A DNA stretch of 12,079 nt from Candidatus Mcinerneyibacteriota bacterium (GTDB taxonomy: Bacteria; AUK180; JAQVHJ01): NCBI GenBank assembly GCA_030630935.1, contig DAOVMD010000048.1:1-12079 (forward strand), written 5' to 3'. Numbering within the stretch: position 1 is the first letter of the stretch; the number at the start of each line of letters is the position of its first letter. Position numbers and translations under genes: made by a program. The notes beneath the pieces are model-generated. The model was not told the DNA's origin. It was given only the letters and a program-made list of their open reading frames with translations, and ran no database searches. Positions 1 through 12,079 of this stretch are shown one piece after another.

Positions 1-2435
1 GCTTTATTGATGTAATACATACCGCGACTGAGAAGGAGTCCGGTATCTTTCTTTTTGAGTACATAAGTGATCGGAATTGACCCGGTCTCTGTGGTACTGA
101 ATATCCCTGAAGTATTGATAATAATCTCATTGTCTTTTATGAGATTTATATCAGATTCAAATATTTTATTGGTATCATCAAAACCAAGATACCCGGTAAA
201 TATACAACCCAGGTCTGAATTACTGTTAATCCTCGTAGTAAACTTAATCTCTTCACCATTGAAATATGATGGTTTATCCGTACTGAAATCAATGATTCTA
301 ATCCAAAATCCTCTAACATCAATCGGATATCGGTAGTCCTTACCATTAAATGAATATTTAATATCATAACTCCCCTGGTAAACTTCGGTAGGAATATCAA
401 AACTAAAGTTCAAGCTTTTCGGACCGGTAATTTCAAATGAACTCTCCCAGTCAAATGGAGATTTTACATTTAAAGTTCCTGTATTATTTACAATAGCTGT
501 GCATAAAACTTTGTCGTTCGAGTTATAAACAGATTTATCCGTATAGAATGTGATATCATCACCAATCAGGTTAAGATACTTATAACCCAAGTACACATAC
601 CGCCCGGTCTCTAATGAAAGTCCTACCGTAATCTTAGTACTGCCATCAACAACAGGTATATTAAACTGCAAAGAATGTGTTTCTTCAAGCGTGAAATCCC
701 GGATATGATCAAGACCGGCATAAGTAATTTTCGCAGATAAAACCGGTGAGATCTCGGTGTTCAGGTTTGTAATGTTAACGGTTAATAATGCGGTATCACC
801 CGGTTCATAGAGCTGTTTATCGAGAATTGTTTCAACCTGAATCTCCACACCTTTAACATGGAATTTAACTATTCCGGTTTCATTATTAAACCTGTACTCA
901 GCGAAATAATCACCAGTCCTGATGTCATACGGAACCTGGAAATTACAAACGATATCCTTCTCTTCTCCCGGGTTCAATGTAGTTGTATACTTATTATCTG
1001 TATTCTCCAGGATATCAATTTCAAAACTGCATTCGCCGGTCTTTGACCCGGTATTCTTTATAGTAAAGGTCATTGAATTAAAGATATTAACATTATATGT
1101 CGGATAGACAGGTTTAGATATAATAACAAACTCAGGTTCCGTAACCTCAAAATCAAATGACTTTATTACGATTGGATCAAGTTCTTGATCCAGAACAACT
1201 CCGTATCCGGTATAGATTCCGGCTTCAATATTCTCAACAGAAATATATGCAGGCCAGGTAAAAACGGAATCTTTAGGAATATTAATATATTCATACATCA
1301 CCCAGAAATCAGTTGCAACAGAAACATAACCCTTGAATTCATGGAACCCGTTATTTGTAACCTGAAGGGTAACAGGGATAAGTCCGTTATTCTCAATGCC
1401 TGCAATTATATCGAGAGAGATATCAATCCCGGGAATTACTTCAAAGGTTTTGATATCAGAGTCATAGGGACATACAACCTCAATGGTGTATATTCCTGGA
1501 ATCAAAACAAGTTCAACATTCTCTGTTCTCTCATCACCGGGTTCAAGTTCATACATTTTATCAAGTGAATATTTAACTGACCCAAGATTATCCTTAACCA
1601 CAATTGAGACCGGCAGCATCTCAGATACTTCACCGGTATTCTTTATTAATACAGGAATCGTAAACTCCGAATCCGGATATTGAGGTTCAGAGTTAATGAT
1701 AACATCTGCATCCTCACCAAACCTGATTACCTGTGTAATCTTCTGAGAATAATCACCTGTAATGTTAATATTAAACTCGGTATCCTCTATAATTCCAAAG
1801 TACTCTTTAAATATCTTCTTCTCATCGGGATTAAGTTCAAATGATTTCACAATGCCCTGAATATTAATGTTCCCGGAAATATGGATACCGGTTGGATTAT
1901 ACAATTCAACTTGAATCGGGAAGATCTCTATACCAACGACTTCAGGAATATCGGTTTTAATTTCAATGACAGACTCTTCAACATTAATATTTAATTCATT
2001 ATAGAAATCTCCAACCCGGCTGCCAAGGAAGAACGCGGTTTGTGAAGTTGTTGAGATAGAGAACGGGTAAGCCTTACCAGGTGAAAGTTCAGGTATGTTT
2101 TCCGAATGAATTTCAGAACCGTCTTTATAAATGTAATAGGTTATATTATTTTCGACAACCGTTGAATTATTCCCGACATGACCGGTTATGATAATATTTT
2201 CACCGGGCTTATAACCGGTTTTATCAGTCTCTGCAGTAATATATAATTGGCTGCCAATTACAAGGAAATCCTTTTTATCAGATGCTATTACCTGCGAAGT
2301 ACCTATACCTGGGTCATTCTTCCAGATGGATTCATAAGTATATTTTCCAGGCTCTGTAATCACCAGAGCATTAACATCAGTGTTCTTGGATGAGTTGGCG
2401 AGAATATCAACTTTCCTTGTCTCTGACCAGATAGG
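1..2435 (-). other. Second array of CARDB-like/Ig-like repeats in the giant protein (continues past left edge)
   Basis: From about residue 2346 to the window edge. It shows the same repeat style as residues 980-1660: N-x-T/N-N-G turns such as ITGHVGNNSTVV, IPVLIKNTGEVSEMLPVSIVV, VTLQVTNNGFHEF and FTIKNTGSKTGECSFEID, each leading into 'PGe...' segments (LEPGDERTEN, LNPGEEKDIV). About seven units of 100-120 residues are visible, and the array is cut by the window edge. The CARDB-like assignment follows from the family pattern, with a stalk or adhesive role inferred. Confidence 0.75.
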
Positions 2436-5400
2436 TGAATTAATCTTCTTATAATTCAGAACAATTTTACTGATTTCAGGTGTTACATCGTGCTCCTGGG
2501 TCTCCAGCTGAACCTGGATCTCTATAAATCTACCCGGTTCAATATCCAGATCGATACCGGCGGTTATCCATCCTGACCAGGATTTGGTCTCGAGCCCGAC
2601 CTCGGAATCTGCAGTACGTAACTTTAACTTAACCGATGTTCCAACCGGTTCCAGTTTATCAAATGAAATTGATTCAAATACAGAGGCCATACCGCAATCA
2701 TGAATATATGACCAGGTTCCGTAAGGCGGGATTGAATTATTGAATACTTCAAGATAACTCCCACTCCAATCTGACATAGGAATAAAGACCTCACCTTTAC
2801 TATTTATTTCTATTGCATCTAACCAGAAATGCCTTGGTTGCGACCAATCTAAATCCTGTCCATAATTCTCTATTCCCCCAACTCTTTCACCCGAATCATT
2901 AAATACATTAATTGAATATAAACGTGTATTCCTGTCATAGTTTATTACATACAGCAAATTCAAACCGGGATCATAAGCAATATCAGCAATTGGAATAGTC
3001 GTATTATATGTAAAAAGAAGATTTCCTGAAGAATCAACCTTCAAAACATCCTTACCTCTATTATAACTTACATCAACAATAAACAGGTTACTATTCCCAT
3101 CTCCGGTTATACACCAGGGTTCAGGGTAAATACTCCATTCGAAAGTGTTAGAATCTATATCTATTGAAGTAAGAGGCAAATTTCTTTCACACATAAATAT
3201 TCTATCAGAAAATTTGTCATAATATAGATCAAAAATCCATGTATTTCTGATATAATAGTCAATTGATTTCGTATATTGGAGATTGTAATCAAACTGAGCT
3301 ATGGGGTAATTGTCATCAGATTCGTTTGAAGAATAGATATTTATTCCATCTGAAGTGACTGCCTCCGGATACCAAAACCAAAGATTTTCCTCAAGATAAT
3401 TAGATTTCGAATACTTATATGTATTGGTTTCTTCATTGAATAACGATATCATATCATAATTACTATCGGCTAAAATGATATTGTCATTATCATCAATATC
3501 AATGTCCCATATAAAACTAAATCGAGGTTGATTCAGCTTACCCCAAATTTCTATATCACCTATATAATTAAAATTAGTATCATATTTCTTAATCCAATAT
3601 TCCCCTCTTCCATAAACATAAATATAACCATTATTTACAGTAAGTTTATTAGCCCAAAATCTATTACCCCAGGAACCATCTCCTTCAACTGGAACAGTTG
3701 TGTCATTACCATGTAAATCTGTTTTATATATTTCACTACTAAGCCATCTTACATAATTTGAACCTATAAAAACAATCTTTGAGAGACAATATAAAAATCC
3801 ATCATTTTGAAATTCAAGATCAGCAATTTGTTTATAAGTATTATACGAAGATACCTCGATACTATCCAAACCATATTTTCTGATTGTTTCATCATTGTTG
3901 TTTACTACATAGATATAGGTTACATTATTCTCTTTTCCAACGGTAAAACAAGTAGAGGTATAATTTAATATAATTGAAGTGTTAAGGTTCAGATTTAAAT
4001 CATAAATTCTAATTTTGCCGGAAGTGCTGATATAAATTTGATTATCAAAATAATTGATCTCTTGAACATTTAATTTCTCTCCAAGATTATAGGTCTCGAG
4101 ATAATTTAAATCGTTATCATATTTAATAATCTTCGTTTCATTCGAATCGCTGTTATCAACAACAAACAACCTGCCAAAGTCATCAACAACATATTTAATA
4201 TCTTGTTCCCCTTGATATTTTTCTATATCATAAATCTCTTTTTCATAATCTAAATTTGAATTTAATTTAAATAAAATGTTAGGCAGAAAAACAAACATCT
4301 CTCCATCACTATCGAAAACAAGATTTGTTATCCATCTCCTATAAATGCAATACCCACCATACTGCCGGTCAAGGTAATAATCTCTCTTAAGTCTGATTGC
4401 ATTATTCTCGGCAATGGTATTGTCAAAAGAACCGAGGTTGTAATCGGCATTGGTTAACCATGACTTGGAATCTTTATCTACTTCTTTGAAAATCCTGTAC
4501 TCAATTTGGGAGGAGTTTATGTTTAATCCGGATTGATTCTCAATCAAGGATGTTCCCGATACAACTTCTGAAGTGGAGAAAAGATTCTTATCAGTGTTTA
4601 TGGTGATACCACCCGATATCCCGGTAATATTAATAAATTCGGTGAGATTGACTTCGTTCCCGGTTTCGGTATCAAGGCAGGTCAAAACAACAGTATATTT
4701 GCCCGATTTCAGTTGCCCGGGAATAGTGAAAGATTGGTTAAAGATACTCTTTGCATTGATGTCACCGGAGAAGATATGGTTAATAACTTCCTTACCGGAA
4801 TCATCGCTCATGGATAGGTTAAGGTTATGCGATGTATTCTCACCTCCGGTGTTGGATATAGTTACAACACAATTATCTCCTGAGTTGAACTCTGTCTTCG
4901 AAATAAAGAGTGCTAACCTGGAATCGGAGATATAATACGGAATTGAAATATCTTTTACTTTTTCCTGACCAAAGTATCCTTTAAATAAAATTAGGTGCTC
5001 CCCGTTTGAAACATTGTTATTTAATTCAAATTCTCTATTTATTATTATCTCATCACCGGGTAATAACGTAATTGATTCGTTATAAATATCGTTTGAAATC
5101 GGAGTGCTTAAATCATAAGAGATTCCCAACTTAAATCGCCCGGTATTTCTTAAAGCTAAATTTGAAGTTAAGGTTTCGCCTTCGTTGTATTCTTCTTTAT
5201 CATTTGTTACGGAGACTTCAAAATATGATGGAATAATTTTTGATAATGGATATTCTCCTGAACTGGTCTTTAATGTTCCGGAGATAAGGTAGTTGCCCAA
5301 TTTAAGCTCTGAATTATTAACGGAAATATCAAAGTTCTTAAGAACTTCCGAACCTGAAATGATTTCCGTAAATAAAATTAGCCCTGGTTGGGTTAACAGA

Positions 5401-8400
5401 AGATTTCCATCAGGTAATTTGATTTCAAACTCTGCATTAGCATATTTTAAGTCAGTTTGAGAATTGTTCTTGACTTTTAACCCGGTTATATTGTTTCCTG
5501 CGTCATAAATATCTGCAAGGACGAACTCAGATGTTATATCGAATTTCTTTACCCGGATTATCTTCCTTGCAGGAATGCCCTGGCCTTCTACAGTGATAAC
5601 TATTTCACAGATATAATTTCCTGATTCAGGATATATGTCCATTATATTACTGAATACTACATCCGCATCACCGTTGCTGGAAATATTGACAAGTTTATTA
5701 TCAACCGGAATCTTTACAAGGTTCGGGTCATAGAAATTATATTCAACATTTATGTCGGTAAAATCTGTTGACATCTTATTCTTAATATTACAGAAAAGAT
5801 TAATCTCGTCTCCACCTTGGTAAAATTCCTTATCCATCTGAATGGTTACTTCAAACGGTGAATCAATTACTTTTACAACTTTACTGGTAGAGGTGAGGTA
5901 TTTGCCAGTCTCGAACGGGACATTATGCGGGTTATATGTACCAGAATCATTAGGGTCAACCAGGTGAACCCATAACCGGCCAAGGTCGGACTCGGTCACG
6001 GGAATCTGATATTGAATGGTCTCAATATATTCTGAATGAGGTTCAAGGATAATAGTTTTATAGAATGTCTTGAAATGGTGAAGCCAATCATGGTAAATAT
6101 CAACCGTTCTCTGGTCATCTGTGTTGTTCCAGATATGTAAATTAAACGGAACAACCTCACCCTCAACCACATTCTCAAAGTCGCAGATTAAAGCACATTT
6201 AATCTTATTGCCTTCGTATGGCTCCGGCTTATAAATTACAGCCATACGCTTGGCTTCGTATTCTTCGGCAATCTTATTACCGTGTGAATCGAATAACTTG
6301 TATCCTACCCACCAGATACCCAGGTCTTCGACATAGAATTGGATGTTATATGTAATCGTGCTTGATTGGCCGGTGGAAAGGTTAATGGAATATGTCTTGG
6401 TATTAACAGAAGTTTTTTCCGGAGTATATAGTTCAAACTTAACAGAGACCGCTTTAGTGTTCCCGGTGTTTTCAATTTCAACAGGGATAACCCTCGAATA
6501 TGTTCTGTACTGAACTTCAGGTATATTATCCCTGCCTTCCTCTTTCTTTGACCAGGCAATGATGTCCCGGACAAGTTGAATCTCACTGTAGGAGGCCATC
6601 TCAACTCCATACGCATAGTCAGTATATAACGATGAAAGGATTACATGACCGTTCCCGTAAGGGTAGATTAATAGACAAGGTTGGCCGTTTGCTGTTCTTC
6701 TTAAAAGAACTGTTGCATCGGACGGGTACTCAGTGAAGAAACCGTCAAAGTGAGCAGTTGCAGGATTCTCTGTGATACTGGCAAGCATCGGATGCCATGT
6801 ATCAATATATGTAGAACGAGTAAAACAATTCTGATCCTCAACATAACCAAAACCTTCTGGTGAACCGGGAAGAACCTTGAAATCCGTTCCACGTTTTTGT
6901 GAAAACACAAATAGAATCCCGCCGGCATTAACATAGTCATGGAACTTCTGCGCAAGGGCACTGTCCTCTCCTCTTCCGATCAATGAACCCGAAGGTAATA
7001 AAACCATCTTATGTTTCTTAACAAATTCCTCAGGATTCCATAGTTTACTGTGAACTAACTTCGTCGGATTTAATAGATTTGTAGTCATAACATCCATTGC
7101 AGGGTATGTACCTGCGAGGAAAACTCCTGCCTCATGTCCTTTTAAATAACCTTCATAAGTGGGATTGTAATAATCATAAGAAAAAGAAGATTTACTATCA
7201 AGCGTTTTTGAATCTGTGTTATTAGAATATTCATCATTTCTACTTGCATCTTTATATATATCAATATCGTCAGGCGGATCTTCAAAACATTCTTCCTCAT
7301 CAGGATAACGTTCAGTATAAATATAACCGATACAATAATCCATTAAACTCCTGGCAGTCCCATATAACCCTGACTTTGTTGAATCTCCATAATTAGGATG
7401 GGTGGGAGTCATATTTCCGGCAAGATCCGTTGCATAAACATAGAGTTCCTTATAACCGGATTCCAATAATGGACACTCAGAATAACCTGTGGAGTGATCT
7501 GCTGTTTGAATTGTATAAACTGCCTTATATGGAAGATCAGTTTCAGGATCATTTAATAAAACTTTTAAACCGGGTAAGAAAACTCGTTTCCCAGTCAAAT
7601 CATAAAAGTAAACTCCGAATTTAGTTGGGTCAATTAAATCACTTAAACCCCCTTTGGTGTCTGGTGGATTATATGCACTAATTCCAGAAACTGCATCTTC
7701 AAGTAGTATAATATGCTCATTTTTACCGGTTGCTTTAGATTTCGTGTCTTTATCCTTTTTCTTTGGCGCTTCAAAATCTAATTTAATTATATGCTGAGTA
7801 TCTGCAACATTCTCATTCTCATTAAATGCCCACGCGTAATTATTGGAAGGATCTCTATATGCAATTGTTGTGGGATTCCCATCAAAATCTTTTTCTTGGA
7901 AATCTTTTACATTTTTAACTTTTATACATATCTCTTTAGAGCCTTTAAAATCAGATATCGGAATAATTATTTTTTCTAATCTATATGTCCAATTTCCATC
8001 TTGTTCTTTTACCCAACTTCCCTTTGAACTGTCTGGAGTAAAAACTTTATTGGTGTCTGAAACAATTGATACATCAGGTTTAGGAACATCTGTTGAAAAA
8101 GATAAACGTAAGGGTTCTGAGAATTTTAATAAAATATCTACCTCTTTTCCTGGAATTGGTTTGTCTTTTATAATTTCAATCTTTGCTTTATTTTTCTGTG
8201 TTAGATCAGGAGATTCTGGATTGCCACAATAACTTATCTTACCATTATAATATTTCTTTTTTACCCCAAGTAAATTCTTTTCAGAATTACAAATCTCAAC
8301 TTCAGATAAATACAAACAGAAATTATCAATAAATACTATTTCATTTTTAGGATCTGATAGGTCATTATCACCCTTGTCACTTCCTGCTCTTATAATTATT

Positions 8401-9470
8401 TTATGTTTCCCATCAGGATATTGAGGACCATAATCATCCTCCATGCTATTTATTAGTGCATCTTCACCATCCCAATCTTCTGCCTTTCTAAGTTTTGTAT
8501 TCCACCTTCCATCTTTATCAATATCAGAAGGTTTTCCAGAAAAATTTTTACAGTTTGTTAAAATATAATAATATGAATGTCCGCGGCGACCTGTTGTACT
8601 ATACGGACTTGGTTTATCATTTGTCTTTTTATGAAAAATTGTTTGTACAAAATTTTTTTTGTCATAATTTCTTAAATGTCCATCCCACTTACCATCTTTT
8701 ATCAAATATTTTTCAGAATCATTTTTCCCAATTTTATAGAAAATATGCATTATTCCTGAATGAAGACCCAATTTATATTTCCTGTCTTTTAATGTTTTTG
8801 TAGGATCATATGCTTCACAAATAATATCAACATTCCCTGATAAAACATAAGGTTCATTTTTATTTTTTTCTGTTATTCCCCAACGATATTCATCTTTTTC
8901 GAAAAATACTTCTTCAATAACTGGTCTTATTTTTATATGATTTCCAGTATCATCAGTGTTGTGTAATTCCCTATCTAATAGATCTCCTTGAGGAGATAAA
9001 GGATTATACTCTTTTAATTTATTAAGATCCTTACATGCTATATGTATATGATAACATGCGAAATTTCCTTTGTATATTTCACCAATTTCTTGATTTACTC
9101 CTACGGTATCATTATTCTTAACAGATGGAATTATATGGTGATAAACGATAACATGCTTATCTTCTGTTTGTATCATACAAGTATGTTTTAAAGGATCAGT
9201 ATCTCTAATCAATCCTCCTACAATAGAATAAACTTTAACATTATCAGTATCATTAACCGCACAATCAACACCCAGATGTAGACGATATTTCTTATCATCA
9301 GTATAACGATATGAACAATATACATCTGAAATTTCTCCAACATTCTTATAATTTTGACCATCTTTTACTTTTAAAGGCCATTCTTTAGCTGTTGTAGATA
9401 CAGAAAATTTAAATAAATTAATAACTATTAAAAGAAAAACAAAACCCTTAAAAATAATTTTATTTTTCAT
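1..9470 (-). CDS. Giant secreted multidomain protein: M23 peptidase domain, GATase-like domain, CARDB-like repeats, beta-propeller (3' end outside window)
   Basis: An unbroken frame of 3,156 codons (roughly 345 kDa) with no stop before the left edge, so the C-terminus is missing. I checked the frame at more than ten points along its length and it stays in register. The start is the ATG at 9470, preceded by GGAGG (9482-9486) and followed by a signal peptide (residues 1 to about 28: Lys-rich start, then a hydrophobic core). Domain order by residue: M23 peptidase 43-160; beta-rich region 165-560; Ig-like segment ending in YATDLAGN near 580-700; acidic linker about 718-768; GATase-like fold 775-975; CARDB-like array 980-1660; propeller 1700-2235; jelly-roll 2236-2345; second CARDB-like array 2346 onward. 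It is probably cell-surface or secreted, acting in adhesion, carbohydrate binding or wall remodelling (inference). It is second in an operon with the gene at 9476-10558. No sorting or anchor signal can be assessed, because the C-terminus lies outside. Confidence 0.95.
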   Translation of the reverse strand, partial: MKNKIIFKGFVFLLIVINLFKFSVSTTAKEWPLKVKDGQNYKNVGEISDVYCSYRYTDDKKYRLHLGVDCAVNDTDNVKVYSIVGGLIRDTDPLKHTCMIQTEDKHVIVYHHIIPSVKNNDTVGVNQEIGEIYKGNFACYHIHIACKDLNKLKEYNPLSPQGDLLDRELHNTDDTGNHIKIRPVIEEVFFEKDEYRWGITEKNKNEPYVLSGNVDIICEAYDPTKTLKDRKYKLGLHSGIMHIFYKIGKNDSEKYLIKDGKWDGHLRNYDKKNFVQTIFHKKTNDKPSPYSTTGRRGHSYYYILTNCKNFSGKPSDIDKDGRWNTKLRKAEDWDGEDALINSMEDDYGPQYPDGKHKIIIRAGSDKGDNDLSDPKNEIVFIDNFCLYLSEVEICNSEKNLLGVKKKYYNGKISYCGNPESPDLTQKNKAKIEIIKDKPIPGKEVDILLKFSEPLRLSFSTDVPKPDVSIVSDTNKVFTPDSSKGSWVKEQDGNWTYRLEKIIIPISDFKGSKEICIKVKNVKDFQEKDFDGNPTTIAYRDPSNNYAWAFNENENVADTQHIIKLDFEAPKKKDKDTKSKATGKNEHIILLEDAVSGISAYNPPDTKGGLSDLIDPTKFGVYFYDLTGKRVFLPGLKVLLNDPETDLPYKAVYTIQTADHSTGYSECPLLESGYKELYVYATDLAGNMTPTHPNYGDSTKSGLYGTARSLMDYCIGYIYTERYPDEEECFEDPPDDIDIYKDASRNDEYSNNTDSKTLDSKSSFSYDYYNPTYEGYLKGHEAGVFLAGTYPAMDVMTTNLLNPTKLVHSKLWNPEEFVKKHKMVLLPSGSLIGRGEDSALAQKFHDYVNAGGILFVFSQKRGTDFKVLPGSPEGFGYVEDQNCFTRSTYIDTWHPMLASITENPATAHFDGFFTEYPSDATVLLRRTANGQPCLLIYPYGNGHVILSSLYTDYAYGVEMASYSEIQLVRDIIAWSKKEEGRDNIPEVQYRTYSRVIPVEIENTGNTKAVSVKFELYTPEKTSVNTKTYSINLSTGQSSTITYNIQFYVEDLGIWWVGYKLFDSHGNKIAEEYEAKRMAVIYKPEPYEGNKIKCALICDFENVVEGEVVPFNLHIWNNTDDQRTVDIYHDWLHHFKTFYKTIILEPHSEYIETIQYQIPVTESDLGRLWVHLVDPNDSGTYNPHNVPFETGKYLTSTSKVVKVIDSPFEVTIQMDKEFYQGGDEINLFCNIKNKMSTDFTDINVEYNFYDPNLVKIPVDNKLVNISSNGDADVVFSNIMDIYPESGNYICEIVITVEGQGIPARKIIRVKKFDITSEFVLADIYDAGNNITGLKVKNNSQTDLKYANAEFEIKLPDGNLLLTQPGLILFTEIISGSEVLKNFDISVNNSELKLGNYLISGTLKTSSGEYPLSKIIPSYFEVSVTNDKEEYNEGETLTSNLALRNTGRFKLGISYDLSTPISNDIYNESITLLPGDEIIINREFELNNNVSNGEHLILFKGYFGQEKVKDISIPYYISDSRLALFISKTEFNSGDNCVVTISNTGGENTSHNLNLSMSDDSGKEVINHIFSGDINAKSIFNQSFTIPGQLKSGKYTVVLTCLDTETGNEVNLTEFINITGISGGITINTDKNLFSTSEVVSGTSLIENQSGLNINSSQIEYRIFKEVDKDSKSWLTNADYNLGSFDNTIAENNAIRLKRDYYLDRQYGGYCIYRRWITNLVFDSDGEMFVFLPNILFKLNSNLDYEKEIYDIEKYQGEQDIKYVVDDFGRLFVVDNSDSNETKIIKYDNDLNYLETYNLGEKLNVQEINYFDNQIYISTSGKIRIYDLNLNLNTSIILNYTSTCFTVGKENNVTYIYVVNNNDETIRKYGLDSIEVSSYNTYKQIADLEFQNDGFLYCLSKIVFIGSNYVRWLSSEIYKTDLHGNDTTVPVEGDGSWGNRFWANKLTVNNGYIYVYGRGEYWIKKYDTNFNYIGDIEIWGKLNQPRFSFIWDIDIDDNDNIILADSNYDMISLFNEETNTYKYSKSNYLEENLWFWYPEAVTSDGINIYSSNESDDNYPIAQFDYNLQYTKSIDYYIRNTWIFDLYYDKFSDRIFMCERNLPLTSIDIDSNTFEWSIYPEPWCITGDGNSNLFIVDVSYNRGKDVLKVDSSGNLLFTYNTTIPIADIAYDPGLNLLYVINYDRNTRLYSINVFNDSGERVGGIENYGQDLDWSQPRHFWLDAIEINSKGEVFIPMSDWSGSYLEVFNNSIPPYGTWSYIHDCGMASVFESISFDKLEPVGTSVKLKLRTADSEVGLETKSWSGWITAGIDLDIEPGRFIEIQVQLETQEHDVTPEISKIVLNYKKINSPIWSETRKVDILANSSKNTDVNALVITEPGKYTYESIWKNDPGIGTSQVIASDKKDFLVIGSQLYITAETDKTGYKPGENIIITGHVGNNSTVVENNITYYIYKDGSEIHSENIPELSPGKAYPFSISTTSQTAFFLGSRVGDFYNELNINVEESVIEIKTDIPEVVGIEIFPIQVELYNPTGIHISGNINIQGIVKSFELNPDEKKIFKEYFGIIEDTEFNINITGDYSQKITQVIRFGEDADVIINSEPQYPDSEFTIPVLIKNTGEVSEMLPVSIVVKDNLGSVKYSLDKMYELEPGDERTENVELVLIPGIYTIEVVCPYDSDIKTFEVIPGIDISLDIIAGIENNGLIPVTLQVTNNGFHEFKGYVSVATDFWVMYEYINIPKDSVFTWPAYISVENIEAGIYTGYGVVLDQELDPIVIKSFDFEVTEPEFVIISKPVYPTYNVNIFNSMTFTIKNTGSKTGECSFEIDILENTDNKYTTTLNPGEEKDIVCNFQVPYDIRTGDYFAEYRFNNETGIVKFHVKGVEIQVETILDKQLYEPGDTALLTVNITNLNTEISPVLSAKITYAGLDHIRDFTLEETHSLQFNIPVVDGSTKITVGLSLETGRYVYLGYKYLNLIGDDITFYTDKSVYNSNDKVLCTAIVNNTGTLNVKSPFDWESSFEITGPKSLNFSFDIPTEVYQGSYDIKYSFNGKDYRYPIDVRGFWIRIIDFSTDKPSYFNGEEIKFTTRINSNSDLGCIFTGYLGFDDTNKIFESDINLIKDNEIIINTSGIFSTTETGSIPITYVLKKKDTGLLLSRGMYYINK
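2436..2765 (-). other. Jelly-roll (F5/8 type C-like) domain in the giant protein
   Basis: Residues about 2236-2345. The segment reads GTSVKLKLRTADSE, then WSGWITAGIDLDIEPGRFIEIQVQLE and a closing TPEISKIVLNY. It resembles the jelly-roll module that often follows propellers in secreted bacterial proteins, with the typical 'PGRyiqvrv.l' and 'tP.l..v...Y' strands. Such modules commonly bind sugars or other surfaces. Its placement straight after the propeller suits the two forming one functional unit (inference). Confidence 0.6.
2766..4373 (-). other. NHL-like beta-propeller region in the giant protein
   Basis: Residues about 1700-2235. Repeating short strands alternate with 'D.dG.lyV.D' style turns, for example FDSDGEMFVF, VDDFGRLFVVDNSDS, DIDDNDNIILADSNYD and GDGNSNLFIVD. 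Each is followed by a strand with I.kYD or similar. This matches NHL/6-bladed propeller blades, which act as protein or ligand binding platforms. The number of blades cannot be fixed by eye. The DNA here is visibly poorer in CCGG words and lower in GC than either flank, which hints that the propeller entered the gene as a separate block. Confidence 0.7.
4491..6533 (-). other. First array of CARDB-like/Ig-like repeats in the giant protein
   Basis: Residues about 980-1660. Roughly six units of 100-120 residues recur, each built around an N-x-G or N-N/N-T-G turn between strands, for example PVEIENTGNTKAVSVKFELY, LALRNTGRFKLGISYDLS and CVVTISNTGGENTSHNLNL. Each unit ends in a segment like 'sGnY.i...v'. 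This is the usual look of CARDB/APHP beta-sandwich repeats that form extracellular stalks and adhesion surfaces. Individual repeats have diverged strongly and no near-identical tandem copies are visible at DNA level. Confidence 0.75.
6546..7148 (-). other. Glutamine-amidotransferase-like (class I GATase fold) domain in the giant protein
   Basis: Residues about 775-975. Alternating strands and turns are visible: AGVFLAG, then KMVLLPSGSLIG, then DYVNAGGILFVF, then a closing GNGHVILSS segment. This order resembles the GATase-like fold found in ThuA-type and beta-galactosidase trimerisation domains. The position where a nucleophile elbow Cys would sit (after the KMVLLP strand) reads SGSLIG, so there is no catalytic Cys and the domain is probably non-enzymatic, used for binding or oligomerisation (inference). 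It stands out as an alpha/beta domain in an otherwise beta-rich protein. The assignment rests on pattern recognition only. Confidence 0.6.
8991..9344 (-). other. M23 (LytM-type) metallopeptidase domain in the giant protein
   Basis: Residues about 43-160. The first zinc motif reads HLGVD (H65, D69; H65 at 9276-9278). A central VIVYHHII supplies the first catalytic-type His (H111 or H112). The closing HIH (H141, H143 at 9042-9050) supplies the second catalytic His and the third zinc ligand. The 78 residues between H65 and H143 are close to the spacing in LytM, and a YSIVGGLI strand lies between, as in the family's 'dG.V' strand. Family members hydrolyse peptidoglycan cross-bridges. Since all expected residues are present, activity is plausible, but many surface M23 domains have other roles. 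Five Cys residues (52, 70, 98, 139, 146) lie in or beside the domain, two of them bracketing HIH. Confidence 0.85.
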
Positions 9471-9488
9471 ATTACTTAATCCCTCCCC
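9471..9488 (-). promoter_or_regulatory. Ribosome binding site of the giant gene, inside the upstream gene's 3' end
   Basis: Reading on the minus strand, GGGGAGGG (9488-9481) lies in the last codons of the upstream gene. Its GGAGG core leaves 11 bases to the ATG at 9470. The upstream stop (TAA, 9478-9476) lies between the Shine-Dalgarno and the ATG, so ribosomes finishing the first gene clear this site. That arrangement favours translational coupling and supports the ATG at 9470 as the start. Confidence 0.8.
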
Positions 9489-10558
9489 TTGTTATTAATA
9501 TCACTTTCGTTTATTTTAATTCTATTATTAATTAATAATTCTTTATTCTCTTTATTTATAGAAATCGAGGAAAATTCTTCCTGAAATTCTTTTGAAAATA
9601 ATATTTCTCCATTAAAGTTAATAATTTCTAGTTTAAATTCACCATCAGCTCTTTGGGATATTACAGCTATATTTTTATTATTAAAAAATTTAACATCTCT
9701 TAAAATTTCAGATTCTTCATATTCAATAATTTTAGATTTCTTACTATTTTCTAAAATTATATTTATTTGTTTCCTATTTTTTTTATTATCACTTATATTT
9801 GCAGTAAGGCAAATATTTTCTTCATCATTGAACCTTATTAAGGAATTACAATAAAAAGATCCTCTTACTTCTCCTTTTTTTATTTCTTTCCCAAATTTGT
9901 CTAAAAGTATAAATTCATAAATATCTGAACGAATATTTCTATTATCTAAAATTAAAATTAAATCTTCTTTCTTTTTTGAAGAAGAAAAATTAATTGCTTC
10001 ATGTTTGATTTGTTTCTTAAATTTTATTTTACCTTTACAATCAAATTTTATAAAATAGATTAATTTTTCTCCATTTTGATTTTCTAAAATTACGTTTAAA
10101 TATAAATTATTGTTAACAAATTTTACTATATTAGGAAAAAATATTTCTTTAAATTCTAAATCATTAACCATTGTTCCACTTCTAAAACTTATTTCCTTTG
10201 AATTAGAGAAATTATAAAATGTAATTTCTTCACCTGAAAATACATTTGTTCCTGATATTGATATAATATCACCGCAATCAGAAATATATAAAGTATCATA
10301 AATACCTGAAGTATAAAAATATATCGAACCAAAGTCCCTGATTATTGAATTTTGATTATCTAGAAGAAAAAATTTATTATCCTTTTTCACTAAACGGAAT
10401 TTTTTATTAGAAGAATAAGAAATTATTTCACTATTTTCTATGTTAATTTTTTCTTTAATCTTATTTTTATCTTCTAAGATTCCTTGTTTTTCATTCACAC
10501 AATAAATCAATGAAAAAACAAAAAACAAAATAAAAATTAAAAACCATACTTTCTTCAT
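9476..10558 (-). CDS. Exported beta-propeller-like protein, possible lipoprotein, first gene of the operon
   Basis: 360 residues. The start ATG at 10558 is preceded by AGGAG (10566-10570) at 7 bases, a good fit. The N-terminus MKKVWFLIFILFFVFSLIYC is an export signal: two Lys, a hydrophobic core, then a Cys at residue 20. The Cys could be the lipidated residue, but Tyr at -1 is atypical for a lipobox, so lipidation is uncertain. The mature protein is rich in Lys, Asn, Ile and Glu, and consists of short strands with DG/NG-type turns, for example KKDNKFFLLDNQNS, LLDKFGKEIKKGE and IINFNGEILFSKEF. This is a pattern of WD40/6-bladed propeller relatives, with no family certain. The gene is very AT-rich. 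It ends 5 bases before the giant gene, so a joint surface role is likely (inference). Confidence 0.85.
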   Translation of the reverse strand: MKKVWFLIFILFFVFSLIYCVNEKQGILEDKNKIKEKINIENSEIISYSSNKKFRLVKKDNKFFLLDNQNSIIRDFGSIYFYTSGIYDTLYISDCGDIISISGTNVFSGEEITFYNFSNSKEISFRSGTMVNDLEFKEIFFPNIVKFVNNNLYLNVILENQNGEKLIYFIKFDCKGKIKFKKQIKHEAINFSSSKKKEDLILILDNRNIRSDIYEFILLDKFGKEIKKGEVRGSFYCNSLIRFNDEENICLTANISDNKKNRKQINIILENSKKSKIIEYEESEILRDVKFFNNKNIAVISQRADGEFKLEIINFNGEILFSKEFQEEFSSISINKENKELLINNRIKINESDINNKGRD

Positions 10559-10563
10559 CTTAA

Positions 10564-10570
10564 CACTCCT
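10564..10570 (-). promoter_or_regulatory. Ribosome binding site of the propeller-like protein gene
   Basis: Minus strand AGGAGTG, with the AGGAG core at 10570-10566 and 7 bases before the ATG at 10558. It fixes the start so that the signal peptide is included. Confidence 0.8.
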
Positions 10571-10706
10571 GATTTGATTTTAAATTTGATTAGTGTTATT
10601 AAATTATTAATGAAAACTTTCCTTATTTGCTTCTGGCCTTTTTTGTATTTGTTCATCTCTAATTCATTCATTAAATTCATTCTTCCTATTACTAACTTCG
10701 ATTTAT
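10571..10706 (-). other. Long AT-rich 5' leader of the operon
   Basis: Between the promoter's -10 and the first RBS lies an AT-rich stretch of about 136 bp with no open frame of note. It holds a short direct repetition of ATTCATT words (about 10660-10680 on the plus strand). I saw no strong hairpin and no recognisable riboswitch. Confidence 0.5.
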
Positions 10707-10735
10707 AGTATATCATAAATCTATAAAATTGTCAA
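10707..10735 (-). promoter_or_regulatory. Sigma70-type promoter with extended -10, for the two-gene operon
   Basis: On the minus strand TTGACA (10735-10730) is followed by exactly 17 bases and TATACT (10712-10707). The -35 is a perfect match and the -10 matches five of six consensus positions. A TG-A precedes the -10, giving an extended -10. The start point would fall near 10700, giving a leader of about 142 nt. The stretch upstream of the -35 (10740-10800) is very AT-rich with a T-tract, which could act as an UP element. It faces the genes at 10558 and 9470. Confidence 0.8.
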
Positions 10736-10883
10736 GTAAAATCTGTGAAAAAAAGAGTAGATAAATCTAAATCATATTTTATTATATAAACATTATTTCT
10801 TATATGAGTGCGAGCCTCTTTATTACCCAATATACTGATATTTTGTAATATCTATAACTTCTTTTCAGTTCTTTATAAACCAT

Positions 10884-11007
10884 CTTTTGCACAATATACT
10901 GTGCAGATTTTCCCAAACTTAAACCAAAACACCATATATAACCCCAACACAACGCATTTTAATTATATGCACAACAAACTGTGCATCATAATAAATTTGT
11001 GCAAAAG
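10884..11007. repeat. 11-bp inverted repeat enclosing two TGCACA-N6-TGTGCA dyads
   Basis: CTTTTGCACAA at 10884-10894 is answered by its exact reverse complement TTGTGCAAAAG at 10997-11007. Inside, two dyads of the same format occur: TGCACA-N6-TGTGCA at 10888-10905 and again at 10968-10985, spaced 80 bp apart. A further TGTGCA half-site is at 10998-11003. The N6 spacers differ (ATATAC and ACAAAC), so the half-sites are what is conserved, as for an operator bound by a dimeric repressor or activator. The function is unknown. It lies about 150 bp upstream of the operon's -35. Confidence 0.7.
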
Positions 11008-11645: not shown

Positions 11646-12079
11646 TTAAAATATTTTAGGAATCATTCTCCATGGAACCTTTCTCTTATATTCTTCATAT
11701 TCCTCTCTATATTTTTCAAGAAGATCTTTTTCTTCAAAATATATAATTGGTAAATAAAGAAGTGTGTAAGGTATTGAAAATATAAGTGCATACAACGACT
11801 TAAAAAGAACAGCCATACCAATTGCTAATAAACCATTACTTAAATATAGAGGATTTCGAACAACGCTATATATACCTGTTGTAATTACTTTTCCTTTCCT
11901 CTTTAAAGCCGGGATCAAACCTATCTCCTTTTGAGATACTATCTTGAGATAGAAATTTAGACCTAAGAAAATTGCACCCAAGATTAATGAGATCGATGTT
12001 GGAATTGCTATTTTGGGACCTTTGGTAAATGGTAAGGCAACCAACGGTGCAATAAAGGTTAAAAAAATAAAAATCCTAA
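11646..12079 (-). CDS. Isoprenylcysteine carboxyl methyltransferase (ICMT/PEMT) family membrane protein, N-terminus outside window
   Basis: The open frame runs to the right edge, so only the C-terminal 143 or so residues are seen. A TTG at 12044 is not the start: the frame continues upstream as a hydrophobic segment (FIFLTFIAPLVALPF). Numbered from that TTG, the family signature is present: a TTGIYSVVRNPLYLS stretch (R63, N64, P65, Y67; the common RHPxY-type site with Asn for His), then two hydrophobic spans (about 69-101), FEEKDLLEKY with the conserved Glu pair (E104, E105), EYEEYKRKVP and a C-terminal IPKIF. Members are membrane-embedded SAM-dependent methyltransferases. The substrate cannot be read from sequence, and bacterial members vary widely. 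The gene ends with TAA at 11648-11646. Confidence 0.85.
   Translation of the reverse strand, partial: RIFIFLTFIAPLVALPFTKGPKIAIPTSISLILGAIFLGLNFYLKIVSQKEIGLIPALKRKGKVITTGIYSVVRNPLYLSNGLLAIGMAVLFKSLYALIFSIPYTLLYLPIIYFEEKDLLEKYREEYEEYKRKVPWRMIPKIF

Follow-up and report, generated by a model that had tools for sequence, protein, structure and literature searches.

Organisation of the locus

The window (the whole stretch of DNA analysed) is the entire 12,079 bp contig C288 of a draft genome that comprises 3.16 Mb in 471 contigs and is 80% complete; the phylum was sampled through seven genomes. A giant ORF occupies most of it and is directly preceded by a shorter gene on the same strand. The features of the two genes are as follows.

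9476..10558, reverse strand: upstream gene, 360 residues, secreted, propeller-like, with a possible lipobox (SLIYC)
9481..9488, reverse strand: Shine-Dalgarno-like GGGGAGGG, within the final codons of the upstream gene (direct reading)
3..9470, reverse strand: giant ORF, 3,156 residues, open at the contig end, with the C-terminus beyond it
9387..9470, reverse strand: Sec-type signal peptide, residues ~1-28, without lipobox
8976..9380, reverse strand: M23/LytM peptidase domain, residues ~31-165 (Pfam, profile, alignment and structure prediction)
8271..8933, reverse strand: post-head region, residues ~180-400, with a GNVDI..EAYD motif common to other M23 proteins (alignments, matches to L055 and L051)
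6336..7037, reverse strand: body-paralogue domain, residues ~812-1045, common to eight loci of the phylum
4662..4847, reverse strand: MG2 domain, residues 1542-1603 (Pfam)
1962..2246, reverse strand: CARDB domain, residues 2409-2503 (Pfam, best of 3 stretches)

Hydropathy of the giant ORF product peaks at 2.07 at residue 5, within the signal peptide, and no second transmembrane-like segment was found after it along the 3,156 residues. The post-head region is probably Ig-like, and weaker Ig-like Pfam matches occur in the body. The domain at residues ~812-1045 weakly resembles a GH42 trimerisation/amidotransferase-like fold, as judged from relative L053 (GH42M, E 0.0024); neither GH42M nor any other Pfam match was found for this domain in the window itself. 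An earlier note on this DNA had described a 3,000-residue CARDB/propeller stalk. CARDB was recovered by Pfam, while the propeller was seen in the window by sequence pattern only (the equivalent part of L053 contains an SBBP repeat), and the ORF is truncated at the contig edge.

The possibility that the giant ORF was an assembly chimera was rejected, as all three of its parts have independent relatives: the body aligns with L053 and L054, and the head and post-head region with L051, a paralogue. In the segment that holds the head and the upstream gene (8001-11000), GC content falls to 22-30%, as compared to 29-41% over the body, and the low GC may reflect a mosaic origin. At 11646-12077, on the reverse strand, the window also carries an isoprenylcysteine methyltransferase-like fragment (49.9 bits, cut-off 160).

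The head of the giant protein is an M23/LytM-type domain

The earlier note had proposed an M23 peptidase domain with a complete active site at 8991-9344, which corresponds exactly to residues 43-160 of the giant ORF on the reverse strand. This segment does lie in the M23 domain, but the domain starts earlier, at about residue 31, with a WP strand. When the 223-residue head alone was searched with PF01551, as the note had suggested, it gave E 5.4e-5 and 23.7 bits, below the curated cut-off of 28.7, which is a detection threshold and not a biological feature. Standard annotation would therefore miss the peptidase. The same model scored 31.1 bits with relative L080. A genome-wide PF01551 search (E 0.001) did not list the domain of the window, and phmmer with the head alone found no match in PDB. 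A profile of six related heads, searched against PDB sequences, matched the M23 peptidase 5kqb best (E 1.5e-7), and LytM, lysostaphin and SpoIIQ were also among its matches. The domain of the window thus matches M23 far beyond chance.

In an alignment of 29 M23 domains, to the others of which the domain of the window is ~16-25% identical, the only fully invariant columns were those of H65, G67, D69, H112, H141 and H143. The codons of the active-site residues are located as follows.

9276..9278, reverse strand: H65, zinc ligand (HxxxD)
9264..9266, reverse strand: D69, zinc ligand
9135..9137, reverse strand: H112, catalytic histidine
9048..9050, reverse strand: H141, catalytic histidine of HxH
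9042..9044, reverse strand: H143, zinc ligand of HxH

All metal and catalytic positions are present, confirming the claim of a complete active site. The note had named H65, D69, H111/112, H141 and H143, and all of these occur at those positions; conservation decides between the two adjacent histidines, H112 being invariant and H111 variable, and assigns the catalytic role to H112.

We then modelled the head with AlphaFold2. With only 5 sequences the pLDDT was 36, and the alignment of 29 sequences solved the model (pLDDT 84.0, pTM 0.79). The predicted fold is LytM-like, as the note had anticipated. All Foldseek matches with E<=1e-3 were M23/LytM proteins, and VIA matched the model to ShyA (Z 15.9), StM23 (15.5), lysostaphin (14.1) and LytM (13.9), with DipM, Csd3, EnvC, LasA and pseudoalterin also among the matches. 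A metal geometry like that of M23 enzymes is suggested by superposition of the whole predicted domain on their structures. The head shares the LytM fold (Z ~13.8-15.9) and the HxxxD, catalytic H and HxH elements with LytM/lysostaphin-type M23 proteins (PF01551; PDB 2b13, 4lxc, 9gy1, ShyA 6ue4). Whereas these proteins span a few hundred residues and carry small targeting domains, the enzyme here heads a giant protein and falls below the Pfam cut-off. By its fold and active-site residues, the head is a member of M23.

Enzymes with the M23 residue set are normally active, and EnvC-type domains have lost that set. The high rank of the EnvC and DipM LytM domains in the fold comparison, together with the strong divergence of the domain, could suggest a non-catalytic binding or structural module of their kind. 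This is very unlikely, as none of the five metal and catalytic positions varies among the 29 divergent domains, every aligned giant head included.

Long proteins with M23 heads recur in the phylum

The earlier note contrasted the M23 head on a very long protein with most M23 enzymes, which are short and have a LysM, SH3b or coiled-coil partner, and suggested a search for other such proteins. Our results support an M23 head on a secreted giant protein, an uncommon architecture. No close relatives of the window protein were found in a first scan of genome contigs or in viral contigs; a second scan of genome contigs detected the orthologous pair L048 and L050, both in metagenome-assembled genomes. 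M23-headed long proteins were found in at least four of the seven genomes and also in another phylum. Within the phylum, L048 has a complete frame of 5,924 residues, its orthologue L050 is cut at 986 residues, the paralogue L051 from the genome of the window is cut at 724 residues, and L061/L093 is cut at 898 residues; in L055, from another genus, the frame appears to start just after the M23 head. In L080, from the different phylum, the M23-headed frame exceeds 6,180 residues and includes Kelch, NHL, fn3, Ig and lectin-like domains. Among the matches listed in two head-profile surveys (386 genomes each), giant frames were confined to these loci, and the other matches were mostly of 200-1,100 residues, on contigs which may be cut. 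Beyond the giants, the nearest relatives are M23 proteins of ~240-1,100 residues.

The genome of the window also encodes L052, which carries a subtilase (S8) domain and whose later part matches residues 582-1045 of the window protein (45% identity, E 2.7e-113). With a subtilase head on the same type of body in the same genome, enzyme heads look exchangeable on a common body. The subtilase-headed frame (L052:1-4608, reverse strand, contig C336) starts with a lipoprotein-type signal (MMNSC). Two contigs of genome G002 start in a glycine-rich PPGGGGGG stretch (L053:1-60 and L058:7180-7239), and the heads of L053 and L058 were therefore lost at assembly breaks.

The head of the window protein belongs to a compact M23 subfamily. 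Compact heads cluster in the M23 tree, but not as one clean clade, and their placement is unsure owing to long branches, that of the window among them; the tree no more than suggests that the compact type has a common ancestor. Widespread M23 proteins of ~500-900 residues (L081-L092) share the WP...(T/S)FGEYR..H.G.D motif and an order like that of the giant protein (signal, M23, a probably Ig-like region), but have an insert of ~30 residues after the catalytic histidine and lack the giant body.

Giant ORFs with presumed extracellular or adhesive modules have been described in Omnitrophota and other uncultured bacteria (PMC10066038). The proteins reported here resemble them in their very long ORFs and in their occurrence in uncultured bacteria, but carry an enzyme head and lack transmembrane helices after the signal. 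The main text of that paper mentions no M23 or peptidase head, and our literature search found no description of M23-headed giants. The architecture, together with the gene partnership given below, is new, the peptidase family itself being known.

Export and possible function of the giant protein

Omp85 was present in 7/7 genomes of the phylum. The SprA model TIGR04189 likewise matched in 7/7, above its cut-off in 3, the matches in the genome of the window being split and below it; a Pfam search for SprA_N gave no match, nor did any control match. A Por_Secre_tail domain (27.7 bits) forms the C-terminal end of L054, a relative of the body. In the complete relative L048, neither a clear transmembrane anchor nor a terminal sorting domain was found, and its terminus is a helical-looking stretch. 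Omp85 and a SprA-like translocon are compatible with export of the giant protein; taken with the Por_Secre_tail of L054, they make surface export plausible and type IX export possible.

The reading that we favour, at about even probability, is that of a secreted M23 zinc endopeptidase at the head of a giant extracytoplasmic carrier of CARDB/MG2/propeller type, aimed at peptidoglycan or similar peptides. The protein would leave the cytoplasm by Sec, then possibly by a type IX-like route, and come to lie at or beyond the outer membrane; the body would probably hold the enzyme outside the cell, where the head would cut peptide cross-links of peptidoglycan, either of other cells or of shed wall, or similar peptides. 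A subtilase head on the same type of body is what one would predict for a body that carries hydrolases. The earlier note had gone further, to a possible surface-displayed hydrolase at the tip of an adhesive protein and aimed at neighbouring cells or at its own envelope. An M23 head on a secreted giant stands; the adhesive nature of the body, the target cells and, with no visible anchor, the placement of the head at a surface tip were suggestions of that note which the data leave as such.

The best structural matches include own-wall enzymes or activators (ShyA, DipM, Csd3 and EnvC), and shorter M23 relatives are widespread across bacterial genomes. Both would fit a protein in or spanning the periplasm, whose head trims the peptidoglycan of its own cell like ShyA or Csd3. 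We consider such own-wall remodelling rather unlikely, as a body of >3,000 residues (5,924 and >6,180 in relatives) far exceeds what the periplasm needs. The subtilase head swap also speaks against it, as do the SprA matches and the sorting domain found among the genomes of the phylum.

Some M23 enzymes, such as LasA and pseudoalterin, cut proteins rather than wall, and the head might likewise degrade glycine-rich or matrix proteins outside the cell, as part of a scavenging lifestyle. The paralogue with a subtilase head in the genome of the window would fit this, as would the structural matches to pseudoalterin and LasA. This is unlikely, given that most of the nearest matches, by sequence and by fold, are endopeptidases that act on wall. 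A secreted carrier with a wall-directed or similar peptidase remains our preferred reading.

A secreted propeller-like protein is encoded directly upstream

The stop of the upstream gene lies 5 bp before the ATG of the giant ORF, and the giant protein is probably co-translated with this secreted propeller-like protein. Compact-head M23 relatives similarly have a gene for a secreted propeller-like protein of 350-550 residues directly upstream. In a leave-one-out profile test (E<1e-3 at Z=1000; the best of 200 shuffles per neighbour was not below 0.15), the upstream neighbour was recognised in 12/15 other loci, which are related by descent and thus do not count as independent trials. The neighbours of L061 and L105 were not recognised, and that of L124 is a photolyase. 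Five of these (L121-L125) were added once the pairing had been noticed, and 4/5 were positive; L121 and L122 then joined the seed set of the profile, each being left out when tested. Such an upstream gene was seen in 0/8 long-type M23 loci, one of which had too little upstream sequence, the exception being the long-type L063 with an NHL-like propeller gene upstream; it is generally absent from L081-L092 as well. The upstream protein of the window scored 18.0 bits with a larger profile (best of 500 shuffles, 5.1) and was not significant in the leave-one-out test. As a generic propeller, the neighbour of L063, scores equally well, 'propeller-like' is the limit of the assignment.

The recurring family, the replacement of the head by a subtilase and the coupled upstream gene in most relatives go beyond what the earlier note had described. 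They suggest that uncultured bacteria have modular proteins for enzyme display, with the head, the partner and the body as testable units. Tentatively, and on the unlikely side of even, the propeller-like protein and the compact-type M23 protein may form a widespread, unnamed two-gene surface system, with a body of ~100 to >5,000 residues and exchangeable heads, which would attack or process the envelopes of other cells.

A second pair of genes, for a lipoprotein and then a 439-residue M23 protein, lies just upstream of the 5,924-residue giant (L068:4562-10008, forward strand). REP-type transposase-like genes (285 residues) flank this pair on both sides.
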